DNA from: Amycolatopsis balhimycina FH 1894
GTDB taxonomy: Bacteria; Actinomycetota; Actinomycetes; Mycobacteriales; Pseudonocardiaceae
Length of the DNA: 64,000 nucleotides
Reading direction: 5' to 3'
NCBI RefSeq assembly: GCF_000384295.1
Contig: NZ_KB913037.1
Coordinates: 5,700,822-5,764,821, forward strand
In this document: positions 14,664 to 61,135 of the stretch, piece after piece
How positions within the stretch are numbered: position 1 is the stretch's first letter
Layout: the number at the start of each line of letters is the position of its first letter
The notes under the pieces: model-generated
Seen by the model: the letters and a program-made list of their open reading frames with translations, nothing else
The model's database searches: none
Told to the model about the DNA's origin: nothing
Position numbers and translations under genes: made by a program

Positions 14664-14825
14664 GGGCAGAATCGTCCTGTGCCGCACCGGCCTTCGCCAA
14701 GCGGTTTTACCAATCCGGCCAAAAGTAGGCCGACCCCCGCGCGGCAGGTAACCGTTGCTACTAAGCCATTCGGCCGTGACTGTGGTCGGATTGGTAACGA
14801 TCGGCACAGTACCGGGAGGGTGGGC

Positions 14826-15389
14826 GTGGACGGCGGGCTGCTCGGGCGCGCGGCCGCGATGTTCGCGGTGACGGACGTCGACGACTTGGTGCTGCTCGCG
14901 GTGTTCTTCGGCCAGGCGGCCGGACGCCGTGGCGAGCTCAAGGTCGTGGCCGGGCAGTTCCTCGGCTTCGCGGCGATCCTCGCGATCTCGGTCGCGGGGG
15001 CGCTGGGAGCAGGGCTGCTGCCGGACGGCACAGTCCGCTGGCTGGGCGTGCTGCCGGTGCTGCTCGGAATCCGCGCGGCGTGGCAGGCATGGCGTCAGGA
15101 CGACGACGAGCCCGCGCCGGCGGCCGGACTGCTCGGCATCGCGACGGTGTGCTTCGCCAACGGCGGTGACAACGTCGGCGTGTACGTCCCCGCGTTCGCC
15201 GCGACCGGACCTGCGGGCCTGGCCGGTTACGTGGCGGTGTTCCTGGTGGGTATCGCGGTGTGGTGCGTCGCCGGGCGGTTCCTCGCGACCCGCCCGGGCG
15301 TCGCCAAGGTGCTCGCGCGGTGGGGGCACGTGGTGCTGCCGGCGGTGCTGATCGCGCTCGGCGTGCTGATCTTCCTCGGCGCGTTCTAG
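14826..15389 (+). CDS. CadD-like cadmium resistance transporter family protein
   Basis: A 187-residue membrane protein with five hydrophobic segments. FAVTDVDDLVLLAVFF near the N-terminus and CFANGGDNVGVYVPAF in the middle are the paired acidic/Asn motifs of the CadD/LysE-type superfamily; the loop QDDDEPAP separates the two halves. Members export divalent cations such as cadmium or act as quaternary-ammonium/solute transporters. GTG 14826 is preceded by GGGAGGG. It diverges from the GNAT gene. Confidence 0.75.
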   Translation: MDGGLLGRAAAMFAVTDVDDLVLLAVFFGQAAGRRGELKVVAGQFLGFAAILAISVAGALGAGLLPDGTVRWLGVLPVLLGIRAAWQAWRQDDDEPAPAAGLLGIATVCFANGGDNVGVYVPAFAATGPAGLAGYVAVFLVGIAVWCVAGRFLATRPGVAKVLARWGHVVLPAVLIALGVLIFLGAF

Positions 15390-15473: not shown

Positions 15474-15526
15474 GTCTTGAATGACTCATTCAGGTCTTCG
15501 GAGGTCCTGAATGAGTCATTCAAGAC
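15474..15526. repeat. 53-bp palindromic element, copy A
   Basis: Perfect 21-bp arms (15474-15494, 15506-15526) around an 11-base loop. Each arm contains its own short palindrome TGAATGAnTCATTCA. It lies between the convergent CadD-like gene (85 bp after its stop) and the osmoprotectant permease gene (110 bp past its end), so it can act as a two-way terminator. It has the same length, ends and loop pattern as the elements at 28168 and 54271. Confidence 0.8.
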
Positions 15527-15635: not shown

Positions 15636-16346
15636 CTACCCGCGACGGGCGTTCTGCAGGGCGAGACCCCGAGGTGTCGCCAAGCGGACGATCAGCGCGA
15701 AGACTCCGTCACACAGCAGAGCCAGCACCACAGCCGCCAGGCCGCCCGCGAAGATCTCGCCGTAGCCCTGCGCACCCAATGCGAAGCCGTCGACGATGTA
15801 GCGGCCGAGGCCGCCGCCGTCGTTGACGATCGCTCCGATCGCCACCGTCGCGATCAGCTGGAGGAACGACACCCGCGCGCCCGCCAGGATCACCGGCGAT
15901 GCCAGTGGCAGCTCGAGGCGCAGCATGATCTGCCACTCGCGGTAGCCCGTGCCGCGGGCGGCGTCCACTGTGTCCTGCTCCAAGGACACCACGCCGGCGT
16001 AGGTGTTGGTGAACAGCGGTGGCATCGCCAGCGCGACCAGTGCCAGCAGCAGCGGCCAGAACGTCGTGTCCAGCTCCCAGCGGCTGGCCAGGAACCAGAA
16101 CAGGATGATCAGCCCGAAACTCGGGATCGCCCGGCCGATGTTCACCGCGCTGCTCGCGAGGAACGCGCCGCGGCGGTAGTGGGCCAGCCACAACGCTGCC
16201 GGGATCGTCAGGACCGCCGCGATCACCAGGGCCAGCAGCGAGAACCTGAGGTGCTCGAGCGTCCGGGAGGGGACGCCCGCCTTGTCCGTCCAGCTCCAGC
16301 GGTTCGGGTCGCCGAGCCACGCGTTCAGCTGGTCGAGGAAGCTCAT
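15636..16346 (-). CDS. osmoprotectant ABC transporter permease
   Basis: A 236-residue inner-membrane permease of the OpuBB/OpuCB (ProW) type with about six hydrophobic segments. The EAA-type cytoplasmic loop is DAARGTGYREWQIMLRLELP, which docks the ATPase. It overlaps the second permease by ATGA at 16343-16346 and so is translationally coupled. Together with the binding protein across the divergent promoter it should import glycine betaine, choline or a related quaternary amine. No ATPase gene follows it; the 3' flank is a palindromic element and a convergent gene. Confidence 0.85.
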   Translation of the reverse strand: MSFLDQLNAWLGDPNRWSWTDKAGVPSRTLEHLRFSLLALVIAAVLTIPAALWLAHYRRGAFLASSAVNIGRAIPSFGLIILFWFLASRWELDTTFWPLLLALVALAMPPLFTNTYAGVVSLEQDTVDAARGTGYREWQIMLRLELPLASPVILAGARVSFLQLIATVAIGAIVNDGGGLGRYIVDGFALGAQGYGEIFAGGLAAVVLALLCDGVFALIVRLATPRGLALQNARRG

Positions 16347-26884: not shown

Positions 26885-27508
26885 TCAGGGCGCCGCGAGC
26901 GGTGCGAGGTCACCCGTGACGGACGCCTGGTGCGGACGGCCCCACAGCGCGCGGTAGACGTCGTCGGCGGCGCCGGCGACCTCCGCGCCGGGCTCGCCGA
27001 CGGTCCACGTGCGCTCCGGCGTCGTGACGCGCACGTCGGCTTTGTTGCCCAGGCGTGGGGTGAGGTAGGTCAGGAACTCGTCGATCCCGTCGTTCGCGAA
27101 CTCCGGCGAGAAGCGCGTCCGCGGGACGTCGTCGAGCGCCGATTCGGCGTCCAGGCGGTGGATCGCCGTCTCGTGGGCCATGCGCCGCGTCCAGTCGCCG
27201 ACCGTCGACTCGAAGCCCGGGTACGGCGAGAAAGCCGGGGCTGCCGGGTCGTGGCTCAACGCTTCGCGCAGGGCGAGACGCTGGCCGTCCCACCACCCGA
27301 GGACGTCGTCCCAGTCTTGCGGAGGCGCCGGTTTCACGGGCCGGTTCACCGCCAGGCCGATCGCGAAGCCGTGCACGAACGCGATGTGCGTCACCAGGTC
27401 ATGGACAGTCCATTTCGGACAGTTCGGCACCCGTGCCAGGGGCCCGGTCGTCAGCGCCGCCCGCTTGAGCCCGTCGGCGTGGACGTCGATCGCTTCGAAC
27501 AGCCGCAT
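26885..27508 (-). CDS. maleylpyruvate isomerase-family mycothiol-dependent protein
   Basis: A 207-residue DinB-fold protein. WTVHDLVTHIAFVHGFA near residue 35 and MAHETAIHRLDAE near residue 115 supply the three histidines that bind a metal in the MDMPI N-terminal domain; the C-terminal WTVGEPGAEVAGAADDVYRALWG is the usual companion domain. Such enzymes use mycothiol as cofactor, consistent with mshA elsewhere in the window. The specific reaction is unknown. Its first 110 bp overlap the 3' end of the DedA gene on the same strand. Confidence 0.8.
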   Translation of the reverse strand: MRLFEAIDVHADGLKRAALTTGPLARVPNCPKWTVHDLVTHIAFVHGFAIGLAVNRPVKPAPPQDWDDVLGWWDGQRLALREALSHDPAAPAFSPYPGFESTVGDWTRRMAHETAIHRLDAESALDDVPRTRFSPEFANDGIDEFLTYLTPRLGNKADVRVTTPERTWTVGEPGAEVAGAADDVYRALWGRPHQASVTGDLAPLAAP

Positions 27509-28106
27509 GGGCCGACCGTAGCCGTCGCCCGGCTTCGATGGCGAACACCAAGCCCAGCCCGAGGCTGAAGGACAGCAGCAGGCCCTTGCCCGGCTCGTCC
27601 GCGAAGGCGGCTCCGCCGGCGAGGCCGATCAGCACGCTGTACACCGCCCAGATCGCCGCGCCGGCGGCGTCGAGCAGCACGAACCGGTGTGGCGGGTAAC
27701 CGAGGCTGCCGTTGGCGAGGGCGCTGGCGACCCGGCCGCCCGGCAGGTAACGGGCGGCGATGATCAGCAGGCCGCCGTGGTCGCGCACCTGGTCGCGCGC
27801 CCATTCGTAGCGACGGCGCCCGTCCGGCCCGCGCTGCAGCCGCGCGACCGCCCGCGGCCCCGCGAACCGGCCGACGGCGTACCCGAGGCAGTCCCCGGTC
27901 CACGCGCCCCCGGCCGCGACCGCGGCGAGCAGCGTGAGCTGCGCGGGATCGGGCCCGAGCAGGACGGCGACGGTGACGACGGTCGTCTCGCTGGGCATGA
28001 ACGGCAGCAGCGCGTCCAGCCCGGCCACGGCGAAGACGAGCACCCACAGCCACGGCGAGCCCAGCGCGCCGCGCAGCAGCTCGGTGACGTACGCCAGCAG
28101 TTCCAC
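27399..28106 (-). CDS. DedA/SNARE-associated family membrane protein
   Basis: A 235-residue membrane protein with five or six hydrophobic segments. Visible DedA marks are LLPFMPSETTVV, GAWTGDCLGYAVGRFAG and the re-entrant-loop signature ARYLPGGRVASALANGSLG (FxxR-x-x-P-x-x-R pattern). Family members flip phospholipids or undecaprenyl phosphate and support envelope homeostasis. The last 35 residues are Arg/Ala-rich without membrane character and run 110 bp into the next gene in another frame, an unusually long same-strand overlap. GTG start at 28106. Confidence 0.8.
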   Translation of the reverse strand: MELLAYVTELLRGALGSPWLWVLVFAVAGLDALLPFMPSETTVVTVAVLLGPDPAQLTLLAAVAAGGAWTGDCLGYAVGRFAGPRAVARLQRGPDGRRRYEWARDQVRDHGGLLIIAARYLPGGRVASALANGSLGYPPHRFVLLDAAGAAIWAVYSVLIGLAGGAAFADEPGKGLLLSFSLGLGLVFAIEAGRRLRSAHAAVRSDRRPRRRAQAGGADDRAPGTGAELSEMDCP

Positions 28107-28167
28107 GGCTCAATGGTGATCACCGCAGGTCACTTCGGGGTGACGGAGCGGGGGTGGCCCGGTGAAC

Positions 28168-28220
28168 GTCATGAACGAGTCGTTCATGTCACCGGACGTC
28201 ATGAAAGAGTCGTTCATGAC
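28168..28220. repeat. 53-bp palindromic element, copy E
   Basis: Two short palindromes, CATGAACGA-G-TCGTTCATG and CATGAAAGA-G-TCGTTCATG, are also inverted copies of each other (19 of 21 positions), joined by an 11-base linker containing CCGGA. It starts 14 bp past the end of the minus-strand methyltransferase gene. Confidence 0.8.
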
Positions 28221-28233
28221 GTCGCCGCTGCGC

Positions 28234-29034
28234 TCAGGCCGGGGCGACCGCAGCCCACGGGACCGTCAGCTCGCCGAGGCGGATCCGGGACGGCGGGCCC
28301 AGCACCGGCCAGCCCCGCGCGGCCAGCAGCCGGATCGTCTCCAGCCACCGCGAACGCACGCCGAAGGACTGGTGCGGCGCCGCCGTCGCCCAGCAAACGT
28401 CGAGGAAAGCAAGCAAGTCGTGGACGCGCTCACCGGGGACGTTCCGGTGGATCAGCGCCTTCGGCAGCCGCTCCGCGACCGTCGACGGACGGTCCAAGCC
28501 GGCCAGCCGCATCGACAACGTCAGCGAGACCGGCCCCGCGCGGGAGACCAGGACCCACGTCGACAGCCGGCCGATCTCGTCGCACGTGCCCTCGACCAGG
28601 AGGCCCTCGGCGGGCATCGAGTCCAGCATCAGGCCCCACGCGCCCGCGACCTCGTCCTCCGCGTACTGCCGCAGCACGTTGAACGCCCGCACCAGCACCG
28701 GCCGCGTCCCGGCCAGCTCGAACCCGCCACGGCGGAAGTCCAGCAACGGCGGCGACGCGGCGGGCAATGCGGCGGCGACCCGCACCGGATCCAGCTCCAG
28801 GCCCAGCACCCGGACGTCCGGCCGGACCCGGCGCAGCCACCGGGCCAGCTCGACCGTCGTCACCGGGGAAGCGCCGTAGCCGAGGTCGACGACGAGCGGC
28901 GAATCGGCCGCGCGCAGCAACCGGGTCGTGGCCGGCGAGGAAGCGATCCACCGGTCGACCCGGCGCAGGCGGTTCGGGTTGGTCGTGCCGCGGGTCGGCG
29001 CGCCGACCGGGCTCAGGCGGCCTCGGCCAGCCAC
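28234..29034 (-). CDS. SAM-dependent methyltransferase-like protein
   Basis: A 266-residue protein. VVDLGYGASPVTTVELARWL is a motif-I-like glycine loop and VLGLELDPVRVAAALP the following acidic strand, giving a class I fold. The rest (FNVLRQYAEDEVAGAWGLM, GLLVEGTCDEIGR) is typical of an actinobacterial family of unknown substrate. Its start overlaps the end of the DUF2505 gene by 22 bp on the same strand, so the two are probably expressed together. A palindromic element follows its stop. Confidence 0.7.
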   Translation of the reverse strand: MAGRGRLSPVGAPTRGTTNPNRLRRVDRWIASSPATTRLLRAADSPLVVDLGYGASPVTTVELARWLRRVRPDVRVLGLELDPVRVAAALPAASPPLLDFRRGGFELAGTRPVLVRAFNVLRQYAEDEVAGAWGLMLDSMPAEGLLVEGTCDEIGRLSTWVLVSRAGPVSLTLSMRLAGLDRPSTVAERLPKALIHRNVPGERVHDLLAFLDVCWATAAPHQSFGVRSRWLETIRLLAARGWPVLGPPSRIRLGELTVPWAAVAPA

Positions 29035-36711: not shown

Positions 36712-36770
36712 AAGTCCGTGAATGGCACATTGAGGGACTTGAAGTCCCTCAATGTGCCATTCACGGACTT
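36712..36770. repeat. 59-bp near-perfect palindrome, copy B
   Basis: Perfect 29-bp arms (36712-36740, 36742-36770) around a single base, 5 bp after the gpm stop and 12 bp before the end of the convergent LuxR-type gene. Same sequence family as 46050 and 61085. Confidence 0.85.
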
Positions 36771-45241: not shown

Positions 45242-46063
45242 ATGACGGTCATCGCGGTGCTGGGTGCGGGCAAGATCGGCGAGGCGTTGCTCTCGGGGCT
45301 GCTGCACGGCGGCCACGAACCGGGCGACCTGCTCTTCACCGAGCGGTACCCGGCGCGTGCCGAGGAGCTGACGGCGCGGTACGGCGTCCGCGCCGTCGAG
45401 GTCGAAGAAGCGGCGAAGCACGCCGACGTCCTGGTCGTCGCGGTGAAGCCGCAGGACATCGACCCGGTGCTCGACGAGCTGGCGCCGCTGCTCGGCCCGT
45501 CGTCGCTCGTGGTGTCGCTGTGCGCGGGCCTGCCGACGTCGCTGTACGAGCGCCGGCTCGCTTCGGGCGTTCCGGTGGTGCGGGTGATGCCGAACACGCC
45601 GATGCTGGTCAACGAGGCCATGAGCGCCATCTCCGCGGGCCGCTACGCGACGCGCGAGCACCTCGCGGTGGTGCGGGACCTGCTGACCCACGTCGGCCAG
45701 GTCGTCGAGGTGCCGGAGGGGCAGCAGGACGCCGTCACAGCGCTGTCCGGCTCCGGGCCCGCGTACTTCTTCTACCTGGTCGAGGCCATGATCGACGCCG
45801 GGATCCTGCTCGGCCTGCCGCGCACGCTGGCCGGCCAGCTGATCATCCAGTCGGCCGTCGGCGCGGCGAAGATGCTGGCCGAGTCGGAGGAGCACCCGGT
45901 GCTGCTGCGCGAGGCCGTGACGTCCCCCGCCGGGACCACCATCAACGCCATCCGCGAGCTGGAGAAGCACGGCGTCCGCGCGGCCATGCTGGCCGCCATC
46001 GAAGCGGCCCGCGACCGCTCGGTGGAGCTGGGCAAGGCCCACGACGAAGCCGGAAGTCCGTGA
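45242..46063 (+). CDS. proC: pyrroline-5-carboxylate reductase
   Basis: A 273-residue enzyme reducing pyrroline-5-carboxylate to proline with NADPH. VLGAGKIGEALLSGLL is the dinucleotide fold, VAVKPQDID and VRVMPNTPMLVNEAMSA conserved centre, and ALSGSGPAYFFYLVEAMIDAG with VTSPAGTTINAIRELE the C-terminal signature. Its last three sense codons and TGA lie within a 67-bp palindrome, which therefore supplies the stop. Confidence 0.95.
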   Translation: MTVIAVLGAGKIGEALLSGLLHGGHEPGDLLFTERYPARAEELTARYGVRAVEVEEAAKHADVLVVAVKPQDIDPVLDELAPLLGPSSLVVSLCAGLPTSLYERRLASGVPVVRVMPNTPMLVNEAMSAISAGRYATREHLAVVRDLLTHVGQVVEVPEGQQDAVTALSGSGPAYFFYLVEAMIDAGILLGLPRTLAGQLIIQSAVGAAKMLAESEEHPVLLREAVTSPAGTTINAIRELEKHGVRAAMLAAIEAARDRSVELGKAHDEAGSP

Positions 46064-46116
46064 ATGGCACATTGAGGGACTTCAAGTCCCTCAATGTGCC
46101 ATTCACGGACTTCCGG
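46050..46116. repeat. 67-bp near-perfect palindrome, copy C, overlapping the proC stop
   Basis: Perfect 33-bp arms (46050-46082, 46084-46116) around one base. The proC stop TGA (46061-46063) is in the left arm. Same family as 36712 and 61085; this copy has the longest stem. Confidence 0.85.
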
Positions 46117-46873: not shown

Positions 46874-46904
46874 CGTGGCCCGTCCAGCTTCTGGACGGGC
46901 CACG
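46874..46904 (+). terminator. terminator after the bS22 gene
   Basis: Perfect 14-bp arms (46874-46887, 46891-46904) with a 3-base loop, 17 bp after the stop. Confidence 0.85.
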
Positions 46905-54016: not shown

Positions 54017-54253
54017 ATGGCGCACGAAGTGACGGTGATGGGCCGGGACGGCTGCCACCTCTGCGAGGTCGCGGAGGCCGAGGTCGAGCGGATCTGCGGC
54101 GAACTCGGTGTCCCCTGGAAGGCCGAGGACGTCGACACGGACCCGGAGTGGCGCGCCGAGTACGGCGACCGCGTCCCGGTGATCCTGGTCGACGGCGCCG
54201 AGCACGGCTACTGGCGCGTCGAAGAGGACCGGCTGCGGCGCGCGCTCGCCTGA
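54017..54253 (+). CDS. glutaredoxin-like protein (Rv0508-like)
   Basis: A 78-residue thioredoxin-fold protein with the redox motif CHLC at residues 13-16 (MGRDGCHLCEVAEAEVERI), the cis-proline in DRVPVILVDG and a closing EEDRLRRAL helix. Of the DUF836 glutaredoxin type, it probably reduces disulfides using mycothiol or thioredoxin reductase. Begins 19 bp after the ligase stop. A palindromic element follows 17 bp after its stop. Confidence 0.85.
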   Translation: MAHEVTVMGRDGCHLCEVAEAEVERICGELGVPWKAEDVDTDPEWRAEYGDRVPVILVDGAEHGYWRVEEDRLRRALA

Positions 54254-54270: not shown

Positions 54271-54323
54271 GCCGTGAACGACCCTTTCCTGACGTCCGAT
54301 GACAGGAAAGGGTCGTTCATGAC
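54271..54323. repeat. 53-bp palindromic element, copy F
   Basis: 17-bp arms (54275-54291, 54303-54319) around an 11-base loop. Read on the minus strand it matches the element at 28168 at 44 of 53 positions and has almost the same loop; most differences sit in the stem and are compensated on the other arm. It starts 17 bp after the glutaredoxin-like gene. Confidence 0.8.
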
Positions 54324-61084: not shown

Positions 61085-61135
61085 CCGTGAATGGCACATT
61101 GAGGGACTTAGAGTCCCTCAATGTGCCATTCACGG
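61085..61135. repeat. 51-bp palindrome, copy D, after hemD
   Basis: 24-bp arms (61085-61108, 61112-61135) with a TAG centre. It belongs to the 36712/46050 family but has lost the last bases of the right outer arm and 2 bp of stem near the centre. It begins 12 bp after the hemD stop. Confidence 0.8.

Follow-up and report, generated by a model that had tools for sequence, protein, structure and literature searches.

What does a palindrome do whose stem differs from copy to copy, with both arms changing together, and is it kept for its fold or for its sequence? The question is raised by an element at position 28168 of a 64,000-nt stretch of the 10.86-Mb single-contig genome of Amycolatopsis balhimycina FH 1894 (positions 5,700,822-5,764,821; hereafter the window). 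A preliminary description had reported three such elements of equal length with a common 13-base centre, and had read their compensating stem changes as selection on a folded structure and not on the sequence. Genes were predicted with a codon-usage script rather than a standard gene finder; the script missed one window gene, 27399-28106, which encodes a VTT domain. The proC-like protein of the window has its nearest named relative in Amycolatopsis vastitatis (locus L056, 99% identity). The genome G584, used below for comparison, is identical to that record where their loci overlap. Features of the window are collected in Table 1.

Table 1. Palindromic elements of the window and the features that adjoin them.
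Feature	Position	Strand	Remarks
Sub-family A element	15474..15526	.	Between convergent genes; dyads 15480-15490 and 15510-15520
53-bp palindromic element	28168..28220	.	Dyads 28174-28184 and 28204-28214, centre 28194; in alignment A1
Sub-family C member	36712..36770	.	59-bp palindrome between convergent genes
Sub-family C member	46050..46116	.	67-bp palindrome; its own TGA is the stop codon of the proC-like gene
Sub-family B element	54271..54323	.	Tandem context; 17 bases past stop codon; dyads 54277-54287 and 54307-54317
Sub-family C member	61085..61135	.	After plus-strand gene; the site in G584 has a three-unit element of another family
64-bp insertion	28170..28233	.	Three-way alignment with G584 and G556
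Gene, 3' end adjoining 28168 element	28234..29034	-	No Pfam family
Gene (Cad family) before 15474 element	14820..15389	+	Convergent with next gene
Gene (BPD_transp_1), other side of 15474 element	15636..16346	-	Convergent partner of 14820..15389
Glutaredoxin-like gene before 54271 element	54017..54253	+	

A fixed frame and a high copy number

The three elements first described (at 15474, 28168 and 54271) are real, each exactly 53 bp long and matching its own reverse complement at 48, 42 and 44 of 53 positions, respectively, but six elements of the window belong to the class. All three share the reported centre, GTCnnCGGAnGTC (on the minus strand at 54271). However, this centre is not general and was set aside as the definition of the class: at 36712, 46050 and 61085, the frame is unchanged but the centre is a different one. 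Chance does not account for such sequence: TGAANGANTCNTTCA occurs nine times with at most two mismatches (0.37 expected from shuffles), and eight inverted repeats score 15 or more, versus none in 20 Markov-shuffled windows.

Common to all sub-families seen is a frame in which the dyad AAnGnnnCnTT occurs twice within a 53-bp palindrome, with centres exactly 30 bp apart. Among dyad pairs 12-100 bp apart in 1.66 Mb of the genome's own sequence, 101/104 lie at 30 bp, with one each at 25, 28 and 29 bp, while a reversed-dyad control gave 3 scattered pairs. Across 80 named loci (1.57 Mb), 44 pairs lie at 30 bp, 10 at 60, 2 at 90 and 6 elsewhere (control, 8), and in another genome, G019 (0.4 Mb, most of it in tiles chosen by matches), 42 lie at 30 bp, 9 at 60 and 18 elsewhere (control, 9). 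The 60-bp pairs mostly belong to tandem arrays with a 30-bp period, for example in A. vastitatis and A. iheyensis. Complementarity between the arms is high out to an offset of 26 on each side and then falls, which gives the 53 bp of the preliminary description; in the flanks, A is common at -28 and -29 and T at +28 and +29. The 81 elements of our main alignment (A1) aligned without any gap.

Copy number was assessed in several ways. An exact pattern for two of the sub-families alone matched 159 places in the genome, and its reversed form none. Densities and context tests were restricted to the window, itself chosen through the finding, and to contiguous tiles that had not been chosen by matches, since the other own-genome tiles and 18/20 of the G019 tiles were placed at known matches. 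This 1.084 Mb holds 59 framed elements, of which the window contributes 6, and simple extrapolation gives some 600 for the genome. The idea that only the three reported copies matter was set aside.

The class is distributed across the family. A search model, R1, found it in 114/200 genomes and 31/46 genera of a family sample (own genome and genus counted), versus 1/295 genomes besides our own in a phylum sample, there as a weak match (E = 7e-6). The R1 copy numbers are lower bounds, as at most 150 candidates were scored in the own genome, 18 per genome in the phylum sample and 27 in the family sample. Outside Amycolatopsis, the named loci with R1 matches or framed elements include Prauserella, Saccharomonospora, Labedaea and Actinophytocola. 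Two R1 matches, L094:10827-10917 and L097:13810-13921, span 91 and 112 bp instead of the usual 61, the first corresponding to one additional 30-bp unit. A 73-base query around the 15474 element had no match in 72,556 plasmid records. Rfam gave no match in the window at curated scores, and a known RNA family was therefore rejected; at 28100-28300 only three microRNA models appeared, far under their gathering scores.

We also observed a second fixed-frame class, TCGTGAGTG-N9-GTTnnAAC-N9'-CACTCACGA, of 44 bp. It occurs at L057:9901-9944, L068:18755-18798, L072:5247-5290, L240:4657-4700 and other sites, and in the own genome at L158:15691-15734. Of 20 distinct spans delimited by the end motifs, 18 measure exactly 44 bp, and in 10/17 full matches the N9 blocks are perfect reverse complements that differ in sequence from one match to another.

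Paired stem changes and fast gain and replacement between species

Outside the anchors, the stem varies from copy to copy and also among species and genera, and both arms change together. A1 comprises 80 of 105 picked elements plus the 15474 copy (25 of the 58 own-genome picks were dropped by hand, by no rule, and tandem arrays were excluded both here and from the framed mismatch counts). Standard pairs make up 92.0% of the cells over its 24 pairs, versus 67.0% when shuffled, and 466 paired cells are doubly changed versus 135.1 ± 11.7 (500 shuffles, none as high), with 76-121 in slid controls. The covariation score is 0.604, versus 0.141 shuffled and 0.085-0.121 slid. With all 105 picks, there are 589 doubly changed cells versus 169.2 shuffled (maximum of 200 shuffles, 214), and the excess holds in each set: 248 versus 92.2 in the own genome, 179 versus 52.3 at named loci and 92 versus 28.5 in G019. 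All 18 variable pairs of A1 have changes on both sides, a count that alone says little considering that shuffles give 16.7; the other 6 pairs are invariant because the elements were collected by the dyad.

The covariation originally noticed in three copies is thus very strong, although compensation is imperfect in the single copy. The 28168 element has two mismatched stem pairs apart from the centre and is a mixed member of sub-family B, in which the own-genome copies have same-type arms in 15/34 cases and unlike arms in 19/34. The phrase "not on the sequence" holds only in part, as each arm keeps its anchor bases in a fixed register.

Comparisons at the same site show the pairing at work between relatives. 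The 54271 element differs from its same-site copy in the related genome G584 by one compensated C-G to T-A pair, plus further single changes; at the L018 site, an extra G in the left arm is matched by a C in the right arm; one compensated pair is the sole difference between L073 and L077, and between L067 and L070 a single change accompanies one such pair. Over 48 same-site pairs, compensated changes numbered 280, single changes 121 and double changes without compensation 82; these pairs lack independence, and a few of them lie within one genome or at the same place. These compensated pairs in related species speak for the part of the earlier claim that invoked a folded structure, but the paired changes are also compatible with one arm having been copied from the other at the DNA level.

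The elements come and go quickly. The insertion at 28170 (Table 1) comprises 51 of the element's 53 bp and 13 bp more, the element's first GT being also present in the empty site; the stop codon of the minus-strand gene lies at its end, and the exact borders depend on the alignment. The site is empty in both G584 and G556, for which the simplest explanation is that the own lineage gained the element. Another own-genome copy, at L020, likewise corresponds to a site without an element in G584. No target duplication is evident at two aligned pairs of empty and filled sites.

In 240 kb of G584, 17 of 31 own palindromes could be mapped (14 could not; against G556, 23/31 could not). Sorted by eye, 3 of the 17 sites have the same element, 6 a different palindrome and 8 none; for the 11 framed elements among them, the figures are 2, 4 and 5. 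Among the eight sites classed as "none", a decayed relative occupies that of the 15474 element, and four contain other DNA of 305-1425 bp, inserted or as a replacement, hence are not clean empty sites. The site at 36712, after a histidine-phosphatase gene, has a sub-family C element in the own genome and in L063, a framed element with another stem in L058, other palindromes, shorter or imperfect, in L060, L061 and L062, and none in L056 and L057. Beyond these, framed elements with other stems occur there in L080 (A. xylanica), L117 (Labedaea) and L127 (Actinophytocola). After the gene that precedes the 54271 element, no element is present in L057-L060 or L063, and the palindrome found there in L061 belongs to a different class.

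In A. vastitatis, a gene with a DDE_Tnp_4 transposase domain (PF13359, E = 3.3e-24; L056:10816-11709) lies 9 nt from a framed element, on its right side. The last bases of this element are unlike those of other copies, and the insertion may have used the palindrome as its target. In the window, a hairpin, CGTGGCCCGTCCAG...CTGGACGGGCCACG, at 46874-46904, ~210 bp upstream of the next gene, is found in the same place in the nearest Amycolatopsis species (L056-L066) and is conserved, unlike the fast-turnover elements.

Position at gene ends and the transcribed strand

The 58 elements that could be classified in the 1.084 Mb comprise 37 in convergent, 19 in tandem and 2 in divergent gaps, where intergenic length predicts 8.4, 31.6 and 18.0 (chi-square p = 4e-26; divergent depletion p = 1.5e-7). 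By gene pairs, a framed element occurs in 36/181 convergent, 19/607 tandem and 2/179 divergent pairs, and other strong palindromes occupy a further 27, 19 and 7 pairs, respectively. In 73 tandem cases (array members counted separately), the element lies a median of 18 nt past the stop codon and 138 nt before the next start. A stop codon lies within 50 nt of 141/173 elements, a count that takes only the left gene of convergent pairs and again counts array members separately. Some gene ends make use of the element, as 21/273 adjoining ends stop at its own TGA. At 46050-46063, where the proC-like stop is the TGA within the element, L059, L060 and L064 have their own TGA and no element. The link to gene ends on which the earlier reading depended is therefore very strong, but promoter avoidance alone would also yield much of the position bias. 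None of the three outcomes by which the preliminary description could have failed, namely just three copies, no significant covariation or no link to gene ends, was obtained.

The six window elements fold at -29.7 to -64.6 kcal/mol (z of -5.1 to -17.3). No U-tract follows the stem: in 32 own tandem elements, the T fraction is 0.84 at +28, 0.50 at +29 and 0.22 at +30. A classical intrinsic terminator (hairpin plus U-tract) was rejected for this reason, and the known analogue is the "I-shaped" terminator.

Selection on RNA predicts more G-U than A-C mismatches in the transcribed strand of tandem, but not of convergent, copies. Framed tandem elements gave 25 G-U versus 18 A-C (p = 0.18), and the other tandem palindromes of the first count 37 versus 23. 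In a full recount of all tandem palindromes, the figures were 63 versus 41 (p = 0.02), with 64 versus 67 in the convergent control. A stricter set of 128 palindromes of at least 40 bp near a stop codon gave 37 versus 33 in tandem (p = 0.36) and 55 versus 51 in convergent gaps. The excess leans towards RNA selection but is weak and not robust, and wobble pairs are rare overall (G-U, 2.7% of cells; A-C, 2.3%). Taken together, the weak strand signal and the rarity of wobble pairs suggest that symmetry may also be restored at the DNA level, or that the copies are too young for intermediates. The earlier claim of selection on a fold is supported in part, as one of two readings.

Competing explanations and known systems

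Where the elements lie, how symmetric they are and how stably they fold all indicate a hairpin that acts in both directions at mRNA 3' ends. On balance, we think that the element is probably a dispersed, portable palindrome acting as an end-of-gene hairpin in both directions, either as a terminator or as a protection of the mRNA 3' end, with arms perhaps kept partly by DNA-level copying; we hold this with modest confidence. Transcription from either side would produce a stem of ~26 bp right after the stop codon, and this hairpin would end transcription without a U-tract, in the manner of an "I-shaped" terminator, or would fix and protect the mRNA 3' end. The symmetry of the element would let it serve each gene of a convergent pair. 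At the DNA level, fold-back copying, or conversion among arms and copies, might help to keep the arms complementary. Termination, spread by insertion and a DNA-level arm-matching process are thus what we infer from the observations above. Against this explanation stand the missing U-tract, the non-robust strand signal and the unlike arms common in sub-family B. In addition, the strict 30-bp frame, which to our knowledge is not a requirement of terminators, counts against a terminator.

It is possible, although we consider it rather unlikely, that the element is a selfish REP- or MITE-like repeat without host function, copying itself via an enzyme that recognises the anchored frame; copies would merely be tolerated just past stop codons, since in other places an insertion would damage a gene or promoter. 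Sub-families are indeed homogeneous to a degree (28 C-C, 20 A-A and 16 D-D elements among 101 in the own-genome set), insertions are clean, only 3 of the 17 mapped sites have the same element in G584, the frame is stricter than a terminator needs and the strand signal is weak. Against this, tandem gaps are under-used and convergent ones over-used, and one and the same gene is followed by framed elements with unlike stems in further species and genera, as at 36712 (L080, L117 and L127). No transposase is known for it, and the two aligned empty sites give no evident target duplication.

More doubtful is a wider proposal, in which mobile bidirectional terminators throughout the Pseudonocardiaceae would be defined by a geometric frame that an enzyme recognises, rather than by sequence, with stems re-symmetrised by arm copying and the second, 44-bp class behaving alike. 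Arm copying during or after insertion would then allow drift to produce new sequence families without loss of structure or of function at the site. The weak strand signal makes this proposal slightly less likely.

A double DNA-binding site, with a protein dimer on each dyad, two dimers 30 bp apart and the hairpin secondary, would explain the fixed dyad spacing and the arrays with a 30-bp period (the 60-bp pairs of the named loci and G019). Such a site might serve nucleoid organisation or block RNA polymerase, for example. We regard both the site and such a role as improbable, considering that two sites do not require the 18 variable stem pairs to be complementary between arms, and that the invariance of the dyad reflects how the set was chosen, its members having been collected by the dyad.

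Least probable is an ordinary REP or REPIN moved by a REP-associated Y1 transposase (RAYT), despite the two inverted, partly self-palindromic arms in one larger palindrome, the high copy number and the intergenic position near gene ends described for REPs in parts of PMC3733652: this system was rejected for the own genome, which has no Y1_Tnp match (5/14 control genomes do), and the tags GTAG and CGTC occur within the outer 13 bases of only 4/202 and 35/202 own arms. The same tags occur in 0/54 and 6/54 named-locus arms and in 2/44 and 0/44 G019 arms, respectively. Monomers of the REP super-families are self-palindromes of 20-40 bp; in the present arms, the positions not used in collecting the elements (k = 1, 3, 6 and 7) are paired inside one arm at 0.28-0.89 over the three sets. 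Across the family sample, Y1 was found in 25/114 element-positive and 17/86 element-negative genomes (crossed by hand), in which we see no association.

If the bidirectional end-of-gene hairpin is the right reading, much of the gene-end punctuation of antibiotic-producing Pseudonocardiaceae would be a rapidly moving repeat (36/181 convergent pairs over 1.08 Mb). As sister species carry different hairpins, or no hairpin, at one and the same gene end, the elements would also offer many natural tests of U-less hairpin termination in actinobacteria, a disputed question. They may further be a case in which strong covariation arises partly from DNA copying and not from RNA selection alone, a caution for covariation-based RNA discovery.

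Several known systems resemble the class. MITEs are short, non-coding, dispersed sequences with inverted-repeat ends that are present or absent between relatives. Our elements are like them in all these respects but differ in being palindromic throughout, and the two empty sites, a small sample, show no evident target duplication.

"I-shaped" mycobacterial terminators, according to the portions of PMC12288462 drawn on here, are hairpins without poly-U within 50 bp of the stop codon in a GC-rich actinobacterium. The same source indicates a dispute over U-less hairpin termination, in that two titles it cites are opposed (U-tract required versus dispensable). The present elements are likewise predicted to form a stable hairpin close to the stop codon, without poly-U, in a GC-rich actinobacterium; unlike those terminators as portrayed there, they are a symmetric, fixed-length, repeated family, dispersed and with fast turnover, for which termination is our own interpretation.

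REP dimers are the other close kind, which qualifies the earlier remark that no named element of this form was known; none was found in Rfam, nor in titles and abstract openings among the literature matches listed. In the excerpts of PMC3733652 (Di Nocera et al, 2013) used here, they are high-copy intergenic palindromes with two inverted, partly self-palindromic arms that can form one large hairpin. They lie near 3' ends, mainly between convergent and unidirectional genes, their ends may provide stop codons, heterodimers occur, the spacers of most are 20 to 100 bp, and CGTC REPs occur without a transposase. The main text of PMC3733652 contains no word starting with Amycolatopsis or Actinobacteri. 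By that account, our elements share with REP dimers, BIMEs and REPINs the high copy number, the intergenic position near gene 3' ends, the two-arm architecture and the use of stop codons, and with CGTC REPs the lack of a transposase, as no Y1 match was obtained in the own genome; some sub-family B copies look like CGTC REPs. By the same account, they are set apart from REP dimers by the exact 30-bp frame across sub-families otherwise different in sequence and by the free stem sequence, and from REPs by 30-bp-period arrays and by having no general GTAG or CGTC tag. The nearest known kinds are REP dimers or REPINs, on the one hand, and "I-shaped" terminators, on the other.
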